A DNA stretch of 53,844 nt from a virus: IMG/VR virus record IMGVR_UViG_3300032092_000043, positions 1 to 53,844 of that record; one strand, written 5' to 3'. The position numbers were made by a program, and so were the translations under genes. Shown piece by piece: positions 37,684 to 52,691 of this stretch (the first letter of the stretch is position 1; each line of letters opens with the position of its first letter). Below the pieces are notes generated by a model. That model saw nothing but the letters and a program-made list of their open reading frames with translations, searched no databases and was not told the DNA's origin.

Positions 37684-37976
37684 CCACCAAAGCAGAAAAA
37701 CAACACATGAACCGCGTGGCCGAGCTGGGCTGCGCGGTATGCAGGCGCATGGGGTACGAAGGAACCCCCGCCGAATTGCACCATCCAAGGGCCTTGGCGG
37801 GGGGCTGGGGGCGTTCAAGCCACATGGACGTCATCCCACTATGTCCAGAGCACCACAGGGGCGCTACGGGCCTCCACGGCCTTGGCACGAGGGGTTTTCC
37901 TAAGCACTACGGCTACGACGAGGCTGACCTGCTGGAGGATGTTAGAACCCTATTAGGGTTTGTCCCTACAAAATAA
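37680..37976 (+). CDS. Ref-like HNH nuclease (recombination-enhancing family)
   Basis: Product of 98 residues. Pattern: HMNRVAELGCAVCRRMGYEGTP (C18, C21), AELHHP (H34-H35), SSHMDVIPLCPEHHRG (C55, H58-H59), GLHGLGTRGF and a final helix ending LLEDVRTLLG. This matches phage P1 Ref and related HNH proteins, whose nuclease acts with RecA filaments on DNA. It closes the first early operon; a promoter region follows. Confidence 0.8.
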   Translation: MTTKAEKQHMNRVAELGCAVCRRMGYEGTPAELHHPRALAGGWGRSSHMDVIPLCPEHHRGATGLHGLGTRGFPKHYGYDEADLLEDVRTLLGFVPTK

Positions 37977-37989
37977 TTTAAAAAAGATG

Positions 37990-38049
37990 TTGCATTGTTT
38001 AATTCTGAGTTACACTACATCCACTGACACAGCAAAACCGCACAGTCAG
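37990..38049 (+). promoter_or_regulatory. Early promoter P1 with 5'-end stem-loop
   Basis: TTGCAT (37990-37995), 15 bases, TACACT (38011-38016), then exactly five bases and CACTG. The transcript would open with the stem CTGAC (38024-38028)/GTCAG (38045-38049) enclosing a symmetric ACA/ACA loop and a GC/GC pair around an AAAACC loop. An A/T-rich tract precedes -35. Same design as P2-P4. Confidence 0.68.
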
Positions 38050-38069
38050 CACCACAGAAAGACAGCGAA

Positions 38070-38369
38070 ATGACCACTACCATCATCACCCCAGCAGCCC
38101 ACGACGTTGACGCCCTCGGCGCACTCTTGGCCCAGATTGCAGCTTTGACCAAAGAAGCTGACGCCATCAAAGACGCCATCAAGAACGACGCAAGCCTGAC
38201 AGGCGACAAGTCCTTTGAGGGCGAACTCTTCAAAGCCACTTACATCGAGAGCAACCGTTCGGTTGTCGACAGCAAAGCTCTGTTCGCAGAGCTGGGCGCA
38301 ACACCTGAGCAGATCGCTCGCCACACCAAAGTGACTGCTGTGTTCAGCGTCAAAGTAACTTCACGTTAA
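38070..38369 (+). CDS. Early protein with helical N-terminus, unknown
   Basis: Product of 99 residues. A helix (LGALLAQIAALTKEADAIKDAI) is followed by a strand-rich part (FKATYIESNRSVVDSKALF, VFSVKVTSR). The layout is similar to small phage proteins with a coiled helix followed by K-A-T-x3-S-x-R, but no name is certain. AAGACAGCGAA precedes the ATG; first gene after P1. Confidence 0.5.
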   Translation: MTTTIITPAAHDVDALGALLAQIAALTKEADAIKDAIKNDASLTGDKSFEGELFKATYIESNRSVVDSKALFAELGATPEQIARHTKVTAVFSVKVTSR

Positions 38370-38381
38370 TCGGAGCGCACC

Positions 38382-38576
38382 ATGATCAAAGTTGAATACA
38401 TTGAAGAGTTGCAAATGTGGCACGCGGGCTATCAAGACGAGCTTGGCAAGCTTGGCGACGGCTTCACCGCCGAGAAGCGCGACGACGCCATCTTTGCACT
38501 GGGCTTGTCCATGGGACGCAACCCAGAGCGCCACAGCCGCCCACTGGGTGACTACCTCGACCAACCAACGAAATAA
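38382..38576 (+). CDS. Small early protein, unknown
   Basis: Product of 64 residues (VEYIEELQMWHAGYQDELGKL, FALGLSMGRNPERHSRPLG). Two helices with an aromatic motif. GGAGCG precedes the ATG. It is followed by the GGGGGC stem-loop. Confidence 0.5.
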   Translation: MIKVEYIEELQMWHAGYQDELGKLGDGFTAEKRDDAIFALGLSMGRNPERHSRPLGDYLDQPTK

Positions 38577-38583
38577 ACCAACA

Positions 38584-38599
38584 GGGGGCTTTGGCCCCC
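38584..38599 (+). other. Intergenic stem-loop H1 (GGGGGC-TTTG-GCCCCC)
   Basis: Perfect 6-bp GC stem with a TTTG loop. No T tract follows; instead AT(C)AAAAGCGAA leads into the next ribosome site. A nearly identical element lies at 41357-41372. Confidence 0.75.
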
Positions 38600-38622
38600 A
38601 TCAAAAGCGAAAGGAAAGCGAA

Positions 38623-38808
38623 ATGGATAATTACACAGCAACAGGTTTGGCAGAGGGCTTCATCGAGGCCGAGAGCGAAGAGCAGGTGTTGGCTGCATGG
38701 CAGCACCTTGTTGACACGGGCCTTGCGTGGCAACTGCAAGGGTTTTTTGGCCGCACCGCCGCCTCGCTCATTGAGCAGGGTTACATCAACGCACCACAGA
38801 AAGCGTAA
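38623..38808 (+). CDS. Small early protein, unknown
   Basis: Product of 61 residues (YTATGLAEGFIEAESEEQVLAA, then LAWQLQGFFGRTAASLIEQGY). Two helices with Trp and Phe, in the style of small phage proteins with an A-x-G-F-I-E-A motif. ATG 38623 has GAAAGGAAAGCGAA upstream. No function known. Confidence 0.5.
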   Translation: MDNYTATGLAEGFIEAESEEQVLAAWQHLVDTGLAWQLQGFFGRTAASLIEQGYINAPQKA

Positions 38809-38810
38809 TC

Positions 38811-39092
38811 ATGAAAATTAAACTCACGGCACACATCCACTACAGAAAACATTCTTGGGAAAAAGAAGGCAGTTACCAAATTTTGTATATCGCACTGCCT
38901 GATGACGAAAGCCTCACCTACATTTGCGCTCAAGAAGTTGAGGTAGAAGTGCCAGACAACTACGACCCACGCGCACAGCAGATTGCCGCGCTGGAGCGTA
39001 AGAGGCAAAAAGTTATGGCTGACTACCAAGCAATGGTCACTGAGATCAACGAGCGCATCAGCAAATTGCAAGCATTGGAGTACACAGCATGA
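38811..39092 (+). CDS. Early protein with beta N-terminus and coiled C-terminus, unknown
   Basis: Product of 93 residues. A strand-rich half (KIKLTAHIHYRKHSWEKEG, YICAQEVEVEVPDNY) leads to a coiled coil (RAQQIAALERKRQKVMADYQ). Starts 2 bases after the previous stop; overlaps the next gene by 4 bases. Confidence 0.5.
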   Translation: MKIKLTAHIHYRKHSWEKEGSYQILYIALPDDESLTYICAQEVEVEVPDNYDPRAQQIAALERKRQKVMADYQAMVTEINERISKLQALEYTA

Positions 39093-39274
39093 AGCACGCA
39101 CAAGCAGATTACATCAACGCGGGGTACAAGTACGAGAAGGCGACCAACGCCGACAAGGCTCGTGCAGTTGCAGAGAGCATCCGCAAGATGCTTCAGGAAG
39201 AACACATTGACGAGCAATCAGACGCACGCTACTTTGTAGAGCGTGGTCGCAAAGAAGCAAGGGAGACAGCATGA
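39089..39274 (+). CDS. Small early protein, unknown
   Basis: Product of 61 residues, highly charged and helical (ADYINAGYKYEKATNADKARA, QSDARYFVERGRKEARETA). ATGA-coupled on both sides. Its C-terminal RKEARETA and the next protein's REAERRRETA are similar, perhaps through duplication of the ends. Confidence 0.5.
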   Translation: MKHAQADYINAGYKYEKATNADKARAVAESIRKMLQEEHIDEQSDARYFVERGRKEARETA

Positions 39275-39474
39275 ACTGGCAACGCGACACTCAAACTAAC
39301 GAACACTATTTGCCCGTCAATGGGGGCTTGTCATGGAAGGTCTACAAGACCGTTGCAAAAGACTATGCCCTGACCTTGCATCACGAGGACATAGGCCACG
39401 GCGAAGATGTCGAGTTCTTTGAAACACTTGCGCAGGCAAAACGCGAAGCAGAACGTAGAAGGGAGACAGCATGA
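39271..39474 (+). CDS. Small early protein, unknown
   Basis: Product of 67 residues (LSWKVYKTVAKDYALTLHHED, FFETLAQAKREAERRRETA). Beta N-terminal half, basic helix at the end. ATGA-coupled on both sides. Function unknown. Confidence 0.5.
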   Translation: MNWQRDTQTNEHYLPVNGGLSWKVYKTVAKDYALTLHHEDIGHGEDVEFFETLAQAKREAERRRETA

Positions 39475-39788
39475 ACACCGACCACATCGTTCACAACAGC
39501 AACACCCAACGCATGGAGTGCCAGCACTGCAACTTTACTCAGGCCGTCAAGATGCCTGCGCCTATCGACTCCATCTTGAGTACGTTTGATGCCTTCATGG
39601 AGGCCCACAAGGACTGTAAGCGCCCTCCCAGCGAGGCGGTGATGTCTGAGTACATCAAAGGCTTTGACGCTGGCTACAGCTACGTCCTCACCGAGATCGA
39701 GCGCTGGCAGGACGAGGTGGGCGTGGACCTGCATGTGCTGCTGTCGCACCTTCGCATGGAAACAACAAAGGGTAGGGAAAATACCTAG
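39471..39788 (+). CDS. Small CxxC early protein, unknown
   Basis: Product of 105 residues. A short zinc-knuckle-like MECQHCNFTQAVKMP near the N-terminus, then helical segments (ILSTFDAFMEAHKDCKRP, VMSEYIKGFDAGYSYVLTEIE). Last gene of the P1 unit; P2 follows 20 bases on. Confidence 0.5.
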   Translation: MNTDHIVHNSNTQRMECQHCNFTQAVKMPAPIDSILSTFDAFMEAHKDCKRPPSEAVMSEYIKGFDAGYSYVLTEIERWQDEVGVDLHVLLSHLRMETTKGRENT

Positions 39789-39808
39789 AAAATAATTTAA
39801 TAAAGTTG

Positions 39809-39856
39809 TTGACTTCGTTTAACTTTGAGTTATACTAACTTCACTGCAATAAGCAG
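39809..39856 (+). promoter_or_regulatory. Early promoter P2 with 5'-end stem-loop
   Basis: TTGACT (39809-39814), 16 bases, TATACT (39831-39836), five bases, then CACTG. The transcript begins with CTGC (39844-39847)/GCAG (39853-39856) around an AATAA loop. Preceded by an A/T-rich tract. Confidence 0.75.
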
Positions 39857-39880
39857 GTAACAGCGAATTAGGAGCGAATC

Positions 39881-40762
39881 ATGAATACAGCATCAAACCC
39901 CTTCGGTGACATGGCAGACGACTTGGGTGCAATTTACGCATCTACACCCGTTGCCCGCGCCACCAACGAAGTGACTTATTTTGAGCAAGATTGCCCCAAG
40001 TGCAGCGGCACTGGAACCTACATGGGTTACAGCCGCTACGGCATGCATTGCTTTACATGTAAAGGCAAAGGAAAGCTGTCCTTTAAAACTTCCCCCGCCA
40101 CCCGTGCTAAGGCAAAAGCCAGTGCACAACGTCGTGCAGCCGCTAAGGTTGACGCGCAAGCCGCTAAGGTTGCAGAGTGGAAAGCTGCTAATCCAGCCGA
40201 GGCTGCATGGGTGGACTCAAGCGCAGAGCGTTTTGAGTTTGCCCGCGCCATGCTCGAGGCCCTCAACAAGTATGGCCACCTCACAGAAAAGCAGATGGCC
40301 ACAGTGCAGCGCCTGACGGCCCAAGATGCAGAGCGTAAGGCCGCCCGCGTTGTCGCGCAAGCAGCACGAGCTGAGTCAGCCCCTGTGGTGTCCGTCGAGG
40401 CCATCGAGGTTGCATTCAACAACGCCAAAGAGTCTGGCGTGAAGTTCCCTAAGCTGCGCCTTGACACCTTTGTCTTCAGCCCTGCTGGTGAGAACAGTAA
40501 AAATGTTGGCGCGATTTATATCAAGTCCAAGGGCGATGGCGTGTATTTGGGCAAGGTCATGGGTGGCCGCCTTTTCACCTCACGCGACTGCACCACAGAG
40601 GCCGCAGCGCGCATTACAGCCGTAGCAAGCGATCCTAAGCAAGCCGCAGTAGCTTACGGTATGAAATTTGGTGCTTGCTCGGTCTGTGGTCGCCAGTTGA
40701 CCGATAGCGATAGCGTCGCTCGTGGTATTGGACCCATCTGCGCAGAGAACTACGGCTTCTAA
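39881..40762 (+). CDS. DnaJ-type zinc-finger and DUF6011-like protein
   Basis: Product of 293 residues under its own promoter (P2). Residues 38-64 carry C-x2-C-x-G-x-G and C-x2-C-x-G-x-G units (CPKCSGTGTY, CFTCKGKGKL), a DnaJ-like zinc site without a J domain. A basic Ala/Lys helix follows (about 70-110). The C-terminal segment (260-293) reads CSVCGRQLTDSDSVARGIG and then P-I-C, the signature of DUF6011. A strand-rich block (YIKSKGDGVYLGKVMGG) lies between. Such combined proteins occur in phage early regions; the role is unknown, possibly RNA or nucleic-acid binding. Confidence 0.65.
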   Translation: MNTASNPFGDMADDLGAIYASTPVARATNEVTYFEQDCPKCSGTGTYMGYSRYGMHCFTCKGKGKLSFKTSPATRAKAKASAQRRAAAKVDAQAAKVAEWKAANPAEAAWVDSSAERFEFARAMLEALNKYGHLTEKQMATVQRLTAQDAERKAARVVAQAARAESAPVVSVEAIEVAFNNAKESGVKFPKLRLDTFVFSPAGENSKNVGAIYIKSKGDGVYLGKVMGGRLFTSRDCTTEAAARITAVASDPKQAAVAYGMKFGACSVCGRQLTDSDSVARGIGPICAENYGF

Positions 40763-40797
40763 GGGTAAGTCCTTAGAAAATATTTTTGCAAAGGGGG

Positions 40798-40858
40798 TTG
40801 ACCTTCCCTTTGTTTAAGTTACAATTACACCACTGACACAGCAAATCCGCATAGTCAG
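40798..40858 (+). promoter_or_regulatory. Early promoter P3 with 5'-end stem-loop
   Basis: TTGACC (40798-40803), 16 bases, TACAAT (40820-40825), five bases, then CACTG. CTGAC (40833-40837) pairs with GTCAG (40854-40858), with an ACA/ATA inner loop and a GC/GC pair, the same structure as P1. Confidence 0.75.
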
Positions 40859-40879
40859 GTAACAGCGAAGGAAAGCGAA

Positions 40880-41350
40880 ATGAAATATCAATACAACGAT
40901 GGAGGCCGAGAGGCCGCAGGCTACAAAGGCACAGCAGGTGACTGCGTGGCTCGTGCAATTGCAATCGCCTCTGGCTTGCCATACGCAGAGGTGTACGCAA
41001 CCCTTGCCAGTGGGACTGGAAGTCAGCCAGCAGGCAAGCGCGGTAAGCGCTCTGCATCCGCCCGCAGTGGCATCAGCGTCAAGCGCAAATGGTTCAAGGA
41101 CTACATGGCCTCCATTGGCTTCGTATGGACTCCCACAATGGGCATTGGCACTGGGTGCAAAGTCCACCTTCATGATGGCGAACTGCCTATGGGCAACTTG
41201 GTGGTGTCGGTCAGCAAGCACTACACCTCTGTGATTGATGGCGTAATTCACGACACTTGGGATCCACAGCGCGAAACGTATTGGGCAAGTTCCGATGGTA
41301 TAGGGCACGTTTCTCGCAGATGTGTTTACGGGTACTGGGCCAAGGCATAA
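40880..41350 (+). CDS. Putative papain-like cysteine peptidase of the early region
   Basis: Product of 156 residues. A small cysteine-peptidase-like layout: GTAGDCVARAIAIASGLPY with candidate nucleophile C22 at a helix start, and NLVVSVSKHYTSVIDGVIHDTW with H114 and an acidic partner (D125 or D128) on strands. These fit a papain-like or NlpC-like fold but no substrate is known. A basic insertion (GKRGKRSASARSG) lies between. It has its own promoter (P3) and ends before a GC stem-loop. An early protease could alter host proteins (inference). Confidence 0.5.
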   Translation: MKYQYNDGGREAAGYKGTAGDCVARAIAIASGLPYAEVYATLASGTGSQPAGKRGKRSASARSGISVKRKWFKDYMASIGFVWTPTMGIGTGCKVHLHDGELPMGNLVVSVSKHYTSVIDGVIHDTWDPQRETYWASSDGIGHVSRRCVYGYWAKA

Positions 41351-41356
41351 AGTGAA

Positions 41357-41372
41357 GGGGGCTACGGCCCCC
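41357..41372 (+). other. Intergenic stem-loop H2 (GGGGGC-TACG-GCCCCC)
   Basis: Perfect 6-bp stem with a TACG loop. Followed by ATTAAAAGCGAATC, without a T run. Sequence and setting match H1 at 38584-38599. Confidence 0.75.
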
Positions 41373-41405
41373 ATTAAAAGCGAATCAAAACCGAAAGGAA
41401 ATAAA

Positions 41406-41654
41406 ATGTCATACATAGCAGAAATTGAAACCCGCGTGGCAGGCATACCCTGCATCATTGGCGTGATCGAGTACGAGAGCACCGCAGGGTCCTACGACTA
41501 CAACGCCCCCAGCGATTGGGACTACCACGGCTACAGCGAGAGCGAGTGGGAGGTCTGTGACCGTCGTGGCCGCCCCGCCCCATGGTTGGCCAAGAAGCTC
41601 ACCGACGAGGACGAGGCGAAGATCGAAAAAAAAATTGAGAAATATTTTAAATAA
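41406..41654 (+). CDS. Small acidic early protein, unknown
   Basis: Product of 82 residues from ATG 41406 (GAAAGGAAATAAA upstream; the longer in-frame form would run through the stem-loop). Strand-rich start (AEIETRVAGIPCIIGVIEYE), aromatic middle (DWDYHGYSESEWEVCDRRGRP), charged helical end. Such proteins are common in phage early regions; no function known. Confidence 0.5.
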   Translation: MSYIAEIETRVAGIPCIIGVIEYESTAGSYDYNAPSDWDYHGYSESEWEVCDRRGRPAPWLAKKLTDEDEAKIEKKIEKYFK

Positions 41655-41657
41655 GTC

Positions 41658-41705
41658 TTTACAGCCCTCAAATTTAACTTATAATTAAACCACTGCATCC
41701 CGCAG
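41658..41705 (+). promoter_or_regulatory. Early promoter P4 with 5'-end stem-loop
   Basis: TTTACA (41658-41663), 16 bases, consensus TATAAT (41680-41685), five bases, then CACTG. CTGC (41693-41696)/GCAG (41702-41705) with an ATCCC loop. No terminator is seen before the terminase genes, so it may feed packaging genes. Confidence 0.78.
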
Positions 41706-41728
41706 GCAACACAGAAAAGGACAGCGAC

Positions 41729-41857
41729 ATGACACAGCAAGAATTCAACCGATTGGTCACGCTGGACATCCAGCGTTTGGTGGCCAAGGCCCAAGCAGAG
41801 TACGAGGCCGAAGTGGCCGAGGAGGAGACAACAGAGGACAGCGAGTCCGCAGAATGA
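41729..41857 (+). CDS. 42-residue acidic early protein
   Basis: Helical start (QQEFNRLVTLDIQRLVAKAQ) and a very acidic tail (EAEVAEEETTEDSESAE). First gene after P4, with AAAAGGACAGCGAC before the ATG. ATGA-coupled to the next gene. Charge pattern suggests a nucleic-acid mimic or linker, without proof. Confidence 0.5.
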   Translation: MTQQEFNRLVTLDIQRLVAKAQAEYEAEVAEEETTEDSESAE

Positions 41858-42069
41858 GCGATCTGCCCACCTTCAGCGTGCATGAGCATATGGTCACCTA
41901 CGAAAACCCGAAGGTGATTATTGACGGCCTTGTGTTGTATCGCGAGGCCACCATTGAGATCGATAGCAGCCACATGGGGCAAGAATTCTTGCTTCGCTTG
42001 ATGTACCACATGGGCGAGGGCCATATCCGCGTGAAGGTGGCCAAACTCAAGGAAAAAACAAATGATTGA
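41854..42069 (+). CDS. Small early protein with LYREA motif
   Basis: Product of 71 residues. IDGLVLYREATIEIDSS recalls the protein at 11315 (GIVLYREATRIMEDG), so they may share an ancestral strand unit. The rest is strand-rich. It overlaps the next gene by 8 bases. Function unknown. Confidence 0.5.
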   Translation: MSDLPTFSVHEHMVTYENPKVIIDGLVLYREATIEIDSSHMGQEFLLRLMYHMGEGHIRVKVAKLKEKTND

Positions 42070-42289
42070 CAAAATCATTGTCAGCGTGGTGTTGGGCGCG
42101 GTGGGGTTCAGCGGGCTATTCCCTGACCTGCCTCAGCCCCTTACGCCAAGACAGTTGCAGCAGAAGGCAAAAGAGGCGTCAAAGGGCGCGGTTTGCGAGA
42201 AGAAGAAGCAAAGCGAAAAGGTGAAACGGTTATGCAAGCGATGGGGGTATGAGCCAAATGAAGTCAGATTTACCAAACAAAAAACCTGA
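42062..42289 (+). CDS. Small basic protein with hydrophobic N-terminus
   Basis: Product of 75 residues. Residues about 5-20 (IIVSVVLGAVGFSGLF) form a short hydrophobic segment or signal-like anchor; the rest is basic and Cys-containing (GAVCEKKKQSEKVKRLCKRWG). It could be a secreted or membrane-anchored basic peptide. The end overlaps the 42-residue membrane protein in another frame. Confidence 0.5.
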   Translation: MIDKIIVSVVLGAVGFSGLFPDLPQPLTPRQLQQKAKEASKGAVCEKKKQSEKVKRLCKRWGYEPNEVRFTKQKT

Positions 42290-42377
42290 AGAGTCGTTGT
42301 CAGATAAGCTGCTTATTGGTACAATGTTTATTGTGTTTTTGATCGTGATGTGTATGCTGCCAGACATCATGCATTAA
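42249..42377 (+). CDS. 42-residue single-span membrane protein
   Basis: Reads MSQMKSDLPNKKPEES, then a membrane segment LLIGTMFIVFLIVMCMLP (about 22-39) and a short tail. It starts inside the previous gene (ATG 42249, GGGGG just upstream) and runs 88 bases beyond it, so the frame is not a mere shadow. Charge bias and position suggest a real micropeptide; expression is unproven. Confidence 0.45.
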   Translation: MSQMKSDLPNKKPEESLSDKLLIGTMFIVFLIVMCMLPDIMH

Positions 42378-42512
42378 GCGAATCAAAACCGAATTGGTTA
42401 CCAGTGAAAGCTGGGTCCAAAATCAACATATAGCGATCCGAAAGCGAAGAGAAACCGAATCGGTTTCGACCAGCACATGCGGCTGGGATCACAAAACAAA
42501 ACGGAGAGCCAT
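42378..42512. promoter_or_regulatory. Non-coding region with ACCGAATCGGT-type palindromes before the packaging genes
   Basis: GAAACCGAATCGGTTTC (42451-42467) is a perfect 17-base palindrome around a central A; ACCGAATTGGT (42388-42398) is a one-base variant; a third variant (A-G-CGAATCGGT) lies at 42740-42750. AAGCGAATCAAAACCGAA at 42376-42393 repeats 41378-41395. These are the same units as in the origin, so a shared binding protein, a late-gene switch or a packaging site is possible. Confidence 0.55.
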
Positions 42513-51756: not shown

Positions 51757-52691
51757 GCACCGAAGCCAAAGAAAAGATTGAAGATCTCAACGTCGTTGAG
51801 GAAAAAGACGGTTCCGTCACGGTGGACTTGCCAGATCACATGGCTGACCACTCCAGTGACGAGCCTGAAACTCATCAGGACAACGACGGTGATGTCGACC
51901 ACCCTGACGACACTGATGCGGTCCGAGAGGCAAGGCGCAACCGCCGCCGCGCAAAGAAGGACTACATCAAGCGCACCAACGAGGAGAAGGACCAAAACCT
52001 GATCTTGTTGCGTCGTCAGAATCAGGAAATGCAAGATCGACTTGCCGTCTTGGAGCGCAAGACGCAAGGCGCTGACATGGCCCGTTACGACAAAGCCATG
52101 GAAGACGAGGAGTACCGTCTGCGGTACGCCCAACAGAAAATGCAAGAGGCGACGGACAACTCTGACGGCTCGGCGTTCACCAAGGCCCAAGAGCTTTGGT
52201 ACGACAGTCGACGCAAGCTGGAGGCCATGCACAGCTACAAGGAACAGGTCTCCCGAGCCAGCTCTCAAGAATCAGCGCCAGCTAACCCCAAGCTAGTGCG
52301 TTTGGCCAACAGTTGGATGGAGCGCAATTCTTGGTATGACCCAGAGGCTGGAGATGAGGATACTCAGATCGCCAAGGTCATTGACAACCGTTTGGTTGCC
52401 GAGGGTTGGGACCCGTCATCTCAAGATTATTGGGATGAGCTTGACAACCGCTTGCAAAAACGCCTACCACACCGTTATACTAGAAACACTGACGAGCCTT
52501 CCAGAAGGAGTCCTCGAAGTGTGGTTACAGGATCGAGTCGTGAATCCTCTAGTAGCGTTAATGGCAACCAGTTTGTTTTGGCCCCTGAACAGGTCAGAGC
52601 AATGAAGGATGCAGGTTTTTGGGATGACCAAGAAAAGCGCAACAAGATGATCAAACGATACGCTATTGAAGCACGCAATAAAAGGAACTAA
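51753..52691 (+). CDS. Scaffold-like head assembly protein
   Basis: Product of 312 residues. Acidic start (DHMADHSSDEPETHQDNDGD), long coiled coil (about 60-170: RRRAKKDYIKRTNEEKDQNL, RLRYAQQKMQEATDN), then NSWMERNSWYDPEAGDED and a basic C-terminal helix pair (EQVRAMKDAGFWDDQEKRNK). An acidic/coiled body with a basic helical end is the form of phage scaffolding proteins that bind the capsid. Position, between GroES-like and capsid genes, agrees. Coupled upstream by ATGA. Confidence 0.65.
   Translation: MSTEAKEKIEDLNVVEEKDGSVTVDLPDHMADHSSDEPETHQDNDGDVDHPDDTDAVREARRNRRRAKKDYIKRTNEEKDQNLILLRRQNQEMQDRLAVLERKTQGADMARYDKAMEDEEYRLRYAQQKMQEATDNSDGSAFTKAQELWYDSRRKLEAMHSYKEQVSRASSQESAPANPKLVRLANSWMERNSWYDPEAGDEDTQIAKVIDNRLVAEGWDPSSQDYWDELDNRLQKRLPHRYTRNTDEPSRRSPRSVVTGSSRESSSSVNGNQFVLAPEQVRAMKDAGFWDDQEKRNKMIKRYAIEARNKRN

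Follow-up and report, generated by a model that had tools for sequence, protein, structure and literature searches.

Stem-loops at a fixed distance behind a family of sigma-70-like phage promoters, a probable built-in protection of messenger 5' ends

Stem-loops that lie a few nucleotides (nt) from the 5' end are known to stabilise messages of Escherichia coli, as in ompA, papA and, with a hairpin on it, bla; the structure is generic, its letters are unimportant, and it hinders the access of RppH and RNase E to the 5' end (PMC3997798). Among phages, the T4 type possesses repeated units of early promoter and stem-loop (PeSL) between small-gene modules, cassettes that are thought to aid gene shuffling (cited in PMC4503421); the putL RNA of HK022 has ~70 nt and forms two stems with a triplex (PMC9378689); and the T7 gene 10 leader, with its hairpin, increases both expression and mRNA level, also in Cupriavidus necator (PMC6146998). 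Here we describe a family of sigma-70-like promoters, four of which (P1 to P4) lie in the uncultured phage record IMGVR_UViG_3300032092_000043, whose 53,844 bases were analysed as a whole and are called the window below. At each of the four a stem-loop starts 7 nt past the -10 element, and this pattern is far more general than the four window sites.

The hairpins resemble those of ompA, papA and bla in their predicted closeness to the 5' end; those, however, belong to individual genes, whereas here a promoter family of a phage lineage combines a fixed distance from the -10 with many hairpin designs. The likeness to PeSL lies in the repetition of promoter and stem-loop, but judging by the title of the work cited in PMC4503421, which names a promoter-terminator motif, the PeSL stem-loop is a terminator, while the conserved stem-loop here stands after the predicted +1 and lacks a T-run; 5' of P3 there is also a terminator-like hairpin. 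The T7 leader is a single one, and that phage brings an RNA polymerase of its own, in contrast to the present family of host-type promoters. We found no cultured phage with the promoter-hairpin and, in the open-licence library searched, no paper describing the motif.

At P1, P2, P3 and P4 the gap between the -10 and CACTG is exactly five bases (ACATC at P1), and the -35, the spacer of 15-16 bases, the -10 and the stem are present to the base as a preliminary description of this DNA had listed them (Table 1). The pairings it had proposed, CTGAC with GTCAG in P1 and P3 and CTGC with GCAG in P2 and P4, are borne out by RNA folding, which reproduces the same hairpins in the leaders up to the ATG (P1 -7.4, P2 -5.7, P3 -9.5 and P4 -5.0 kcal/mol) and predicts the remainder of each leader to be open or almost open. 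The internal design common to P1 and P3, ACA opposite ACA or ATA and an inner GC/GC with a six-base loop, is likewise found.

Relatives were obtained by a search of viral contigs with the 293-amino-acid (aa) protein of the P2 gene, which gave 50 loci; directly upstream of the orthologues the promoter and the CTGC/GCAG stem recur, with loops that differ in length and letters. Related viral loci, ~140 in all, were scanned with a matrix made of the promoter part alone (version 2 also drew on those of P3, P4 and one relative), so that stems played no role in the choice of sites, and at least four Watson-Crick pairs were required for a stem. Nearly all strong sites carry a hairpin at the same place, many of them without CACTG: the stem starts 6, 7 or 8 nt past the -10 in 36, 96 and 14 of 156 distinct sites, against ~5-7 at any offset in shuffled sequences. 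CACTG, shared by P1 to P4 as had been described, is not itself the conserved unit; relatives keep the CA and the position of the stem and change the stem sequence.

A more independent test is the promoter-only pattern TTGACNNNGTTTAANNTNNNGTTANACT, run over 2.9 million viral contigs. Behind it, 67 of 73 distinct downstream sequences have a stem at 6-8 nt (strict pairing accounts for 51, and a bulged design, form B, for 16), whereas 9.3 are expected from shuffles; two of the six stem-negative sequences (L118, L182) have long stems holding a U-G pair, and the other four seem to come from unrelated phages. The reverse search, with the 26-nt form A hairpin of P1 and P3 and no promoter requirement, returned 97 stretches, and in all 76 distinct contexts that were inspected the hairpin is immediately preceded by a -10, five or six bases and, as a rule, CA. 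A strict combination of TTGAC/TATAAT with CTGG..CCAG matched 3 stretches only in the viral contigs. As a control we took sigma-70-like sites of the same loci, cleaned of repeats and of family members (GCACYGAACTTCTCGGTGC hairpins behind P3-type promoters). Where the spacer box of the family is missing, stems at 6-8 nt are scarcely in excess (171/631, against 137/631 at 11-13 nt); where it is present, the excess is clear (77/137 against 19/137). By the shuffled, slid and unrelated-site controls, the stems of P1 to P4 do not stand at this spacing by chance.

The first transcribed base can be placed with some likelihood. CA is usual at -1/+1 of sigma-70 initiators, and 117 of 139 sites have a C at position 6 together with an A at position 7 past the -10, a pair that is kept when the letters of the stem differ; the A of this conserved CA is the likely +1. 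Counted from it, 0, 1 or 2 unpaired nt precede the stem in 18, 89 and 11 sites (118/139). One hairpin of 13-28 nt follows, in leaders with a median length of 47 nt in all.

Pairing is kept while the letters change, through compensatory changes as well as through differing designs at orthologous genes. In form A, ACTGAC/GTCAG is swapped for ATCGAC/GTCGAT around a constant inner ACACAGC..GCACA; two pairs of its alignment are altered on both sides, and 100% of cells pair against 14-34% in slid versions. Here, as in the alignments of the short forms and of form B, pairing percentages are biased upward since the rows were picked from stem-bearing sites and kin share history, so that our argument rests on the unselected site counts given above. 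Among short forms, CTGC/GCAG becomes CCGC/GCGG with the AACGTTA loop kept, and CCAC/GTGG and CGAC/GTCG also occur. Form B reads CTG-A-CC-AA-GCAA-NNN-TTGC-AA-GG-CAG, with one CC/GG to CT/AG change, and further stem designs are CGGTC/GACCG, ACGAC/GTCGT, CTTGC/GCAAG and CTGGG/CCCAG. Loop length varies too: the loops of the short forms have 4-8 nt, and the arms stand 4 to 16 nt apart overall. The orthologues of the P1 gene alone include 12 distinct sequences of form A, 10 of A*, 37 of B, 10 of C, 17 of S and 5 of S*; at this one position the design has been exchanged among at least six, and the hairpin itself kept. The preliminary description had taken the structure to be apparently selected, and as far as sequence can tell the relatives support this: stems stand in them at the same spacing, and compensatory changes are abundant. 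The paired letter changes and the swapped designs argue for an RNA structure, and against a DNA operator or a single RNA-protein site.

A further class of hairpins was observed behind P3-type promoters, GCACYGA-ACTTC-TCGGTGC, with 7 base pairs (bp), one of them U-G or C-G, and a start 8 nt past the -10 (L006+2506, L008+10936, L012+7717, L015+10936, L018+1229, L019+9634).

The hairpin is probably a built-in protection of the 5' ends of phage mRNAs. In this reading, strong promoters of the sigma-70 type carry a self-contained RNA hairpin within the initially transcribed sequence, in the order TTAGGG..CCTA box, A+T-rich UP-like stretch, -35 TTGAC, 15-16 nt, -10 TATACT, five bases, C, A (the predicted +1), stem-loop, and a leader ending in the ribosome-binding site. 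Transcription by the host polymerase would begin with the A of the CA, so that only the first 0-2 nt stay unpaired and a stem of 4-8 bp takes up what remains of the 5' end; the stem would hinder both the removal of the 5'-triphosphate by RppH and the 5'-end tethering of RNase E, and protected phage messages would outlast unprotected ones. We favour this reading because of the predicted geometry, because both RppH and RNase E depend on a single-stranded 5' end and a hairpin appended there impedes RppH (PMC3997798), because in Cupriavidus necator, likewise of the Burkholderiales, a stem-loop in the 5' leader lifted reporter output 1.5-3-fold together with mRNA abundance (PMC6146998), and because the enzymes in question are present in a host-type genome. 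In a bacterial genome collection form A matched a single contig, of 27 kb, in a Limnohabitans metagenome-assembled genome (MAG); this contig may stem from a phage, binned there either together with its host or mistakenly. By curated cut-offs the MAG encodes RppH (155 bits against 116) and two RNase E/G proteins (522.6 and 494.4 bits against 325.95), and the host assignment is a lead. Of the two functions put forward in the preliminary description, a block to decay is accordingly the better fit, being independent of the stem sequence, and the binding of one phage protein the poorer.

Several observations weigh against such a protection. Stems of 4 bp are modest (~-5 kcal/mol), many mRNAs decay via direct entry of RNase E, where a 5' hairpin is no help (PMC3997798), and three members of the promoter family (L026+6948, L033+816, L028+6756) lack a clear stem. 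The leaders of these three are short, ~20 nt, and a hairpin is perhaps lacking there because the ribosome covers the 5' end. Moreover, the internal loops of form A (ACA/A-N-A) and the GCAA are well conserved, and a purely structural role needs neither. Their near invariance, and the retention of AA/AA and GCAA in form B, would suit a binding site of one phage or host RNA-binding protein controlling translation or stability; such a site is nevertheless quite unlikely, given the structurally different hairpins at orthologous genes and the variable loops of the short forms. An extension of the protective reading, in which the hairpin is a genome-wide self-marking 'cap' by which the lineage shields its own messages while 5'-end-dependent decay destroys those of the host, appears rather unlikely to us. 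If true, host takeover would work through differential mRNA survival, with neither a novel polymerase nor a novel sigma factor behind it. The window yielded no Nudix-type decapping enzyme, so that the decay would have to come from the host itself or from another phage factor.

Antitermination or anti-pausing, by which early operons would be read through terminators, is suggested by the hairpin at the start of each unit, by the A-rich loops and by terminator-like hairpins between some units. The nascent hairpin would bind RNA polymerase, as in HK022 put, or an N-like phage protein, as in lambda boxB. Like the structures described here, putL is a structured RNA just past an early phage promoter that begins at the 5' end of the transcript (PMC9378689); the leaders of P1 to P4, however, hold one short hairpin and little else, not a ~70-nt RNA with two stem-loops. 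In the nut sites of lambda, boxA stands beside a boxB hairpin with a constant loop. The small A-rich-loop hairpins of the present, presumably early leaders recall boxB, but a boxA-like GCTCTT is absent from the four leaders, and stem letters, loop letters and loop length differ among relatives. With one promoter per few genes there is also less need for long-range readthrough, and we regard antitermination as unlikely. A role in initiation, in which the hairpin draws RNA out of the polymerase, counters backtracking or R-loops and accelerates the clearance of very strong promoters, would explain why it is tied to the promoter and not to the ribosome-binding site, as in the form A contexts above; yet clearance is already over by the time that a hairpin of up to 28 nt has been fully made, its effect would come late, and this explanation seems fairly improbable. 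Inverted repeats at start sites are often operators, and further dyads cover the spacer and the region upstream. A repressor operator at the DNA level is highly improbable all the same and was rejected on the variable arm spacing: the arm letters change in pairs, form B is bulged and asymmetric, and a dimeric DNA-binding protein would not tolerate such variation.

The relatives stem from freshwater viromes, apart from the one Limnohabitans MAG. Megablast of the window against annotated phages gave no match. By terminase and portal the nearest annotated records are MW202545 (Manatee Spring) and the isolated Caulobacter phages RW, KcrB, RLK and GB2A; the promoter-hairpin is absent from MW202545 and KcrB, both of which were scanned, and the trait therefore seems limited to the freshwater group and not to extend to the wider capsid lineage.

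One promoter family with many genes, many hairpin designs and a spacing constant within about one base amounts to a natural experiment on 5'-end structure, which lets one test whether protection by 5' hairpins is a general rule of early phage expression, and it is a source of ready hairpin-plus-promoter parts for Burkholderiales. RNA structures as short as these, of 13-26 nt, are missed by RNA family libraries (the window has no Rfam match at the gathering score), and covariation support becomes possible for them once they are anchored to a promoter.

Table 1. Promoters, hairpins and adjoining features of P1 to P4 (window coordinates)
Feature	Position	Strand	Description
P1 upstream box	37953-37968	+	TTAGGG-N5-CCCTA, imperfect dyad, terminator-like or operator-like
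P1 A+T-rich UP-element-like stretch	37970-37989	+	AAAATAATTTAAAAAAGATG
P1 promoter	37990-38016	+	-35 TTGCAT 37990-37995, 15-nt spacer, -10 TACACT 38011-38016
P1 5' stem-loop, form A	38024-38049	+	CTGAC-ACA-GC-AAAACC-GC-ACA-GTCAG; CTGAC 38024-38028 with GTCAG 38045-38049, inner GC 38032-38033 with GC 38040-38041, ACA/ACA between; predicted +1 A 38023
P1 unit, first gene	38070-38369	+	99 aa, phrog_6244, function unknown
P2 promoter	39809-39836	+	-35 TTGACT 39809-39814, 16-nt spacer, -10 TATACT 39831-39836
P2 5' stem-loop	39844-39856	+	CTGC-AATAA-GCAG; CTGC 39844-39847 with GCAG 39853-39856; predicted +1 A 39843
P2 gene	39881-40762	+	293 aa, DUF6011 / phrog_4046; query for fetching relatives
Terminator-like hairpin directly 5' of P3	40757-40778	+	TTCTAAGGGTAAGTCCTTAGAA then AATATTTTTG
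P3 promoter	40798-40825	+	-35 TTGACC 40798-40803, 16-nt spacer, -10 TACAAT 40820-40825
P3 5' stem-loop, form A	40833-40858	+	CTGAC-ACA-GC-AAATCC-GC-ATA-GTCAG; CTGAC 40833-40837 with GTCAG 40854-40858, ACA/ATA and GC/GC inside; predicted +1 A 40832
P3 unit, first gene	40880-41350	+	156 aa, phrog_3754, function unknown
P4 promoter	41658-41685	+	-35 TTTACA 41658-41663, 16-nt spacer, -10 TATAAT 41680-41685
P4 5' stem-loop	41693-41705	+	CTGC-ATCCC-GCAG; CTGC 41693-41696 with GCAG 41702-41705; predicted +1 A 41692
Small open reading frame behind P4	41729-41857	+	42 aa

Similar cassettes of promoter and hairpin stand ahead of many different genes, and the family has conserved elements upstream as well. 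Immediately 5' of the -35 the A+T content is ~80% (256 distinct sites), which resembles an UP element, and hairpins lie within 110 nt upstream of 128 of the 256 sites, against 31-45 in shuffles. The TTAGGGaaaGTaCCTAG box (37953-37968 and 40760-40775 in the window) is found ~20-30 nt 5' of the -35 ahead of most promoters in loci L001-L050; its left half is more conserved than its right, and it often overlaps with the stop codon of the gene before it. An operator, a weak terminator and a site of recombination are all conceivable roles. The -35 of P3 falls inside a second G-rich/C-rich inverted repeat (40791-40811). In this and other P3-type promoters (L017+10936, L043+9134, L047+4736) the -35 TTGAC sits within the loop of an inverted repeat, GGGG..CCCC; bases of the promoter are thereby shared with the terminator-like hairpin that belongs to the gene before it. 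The spacer box TTTAA (39820-39836 and orthologues) comes with an imperfect TAAC-N3..5-GTTA dyad overlapping the -10, which varies in both arms (TAACT/AGTTA, TAACA/TGTTA); lying over the core promoter, this dyad is a possible operator.

The window encodes a terminase, portal, head proteins, an endolysin, a DnaB-like helicase/primase and RusA, and the genes behind P1 to P4 are without assigned function. Early timing of these units would follow from gene position. The P2 protein has DUF6011 at its C-terminus and a weak Anti-TRAP-like stretch below the cut-off, and its relatives are common across phages. The plus strand of the window has 20 AGCGAA repeats, of which 12 cluster within 38064-42443, in or around the leaders of the promoter units, and none immediately ahead of those structural genes that were checked. 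A look-alike of the motif at 52475-52525, TATACT followed by a CACTGACGAG..CTCGAAGTG hairpin (-12 kcal/mol), lies inside a 312-aa open reading frame and, being intragenic, is probably due to chance.

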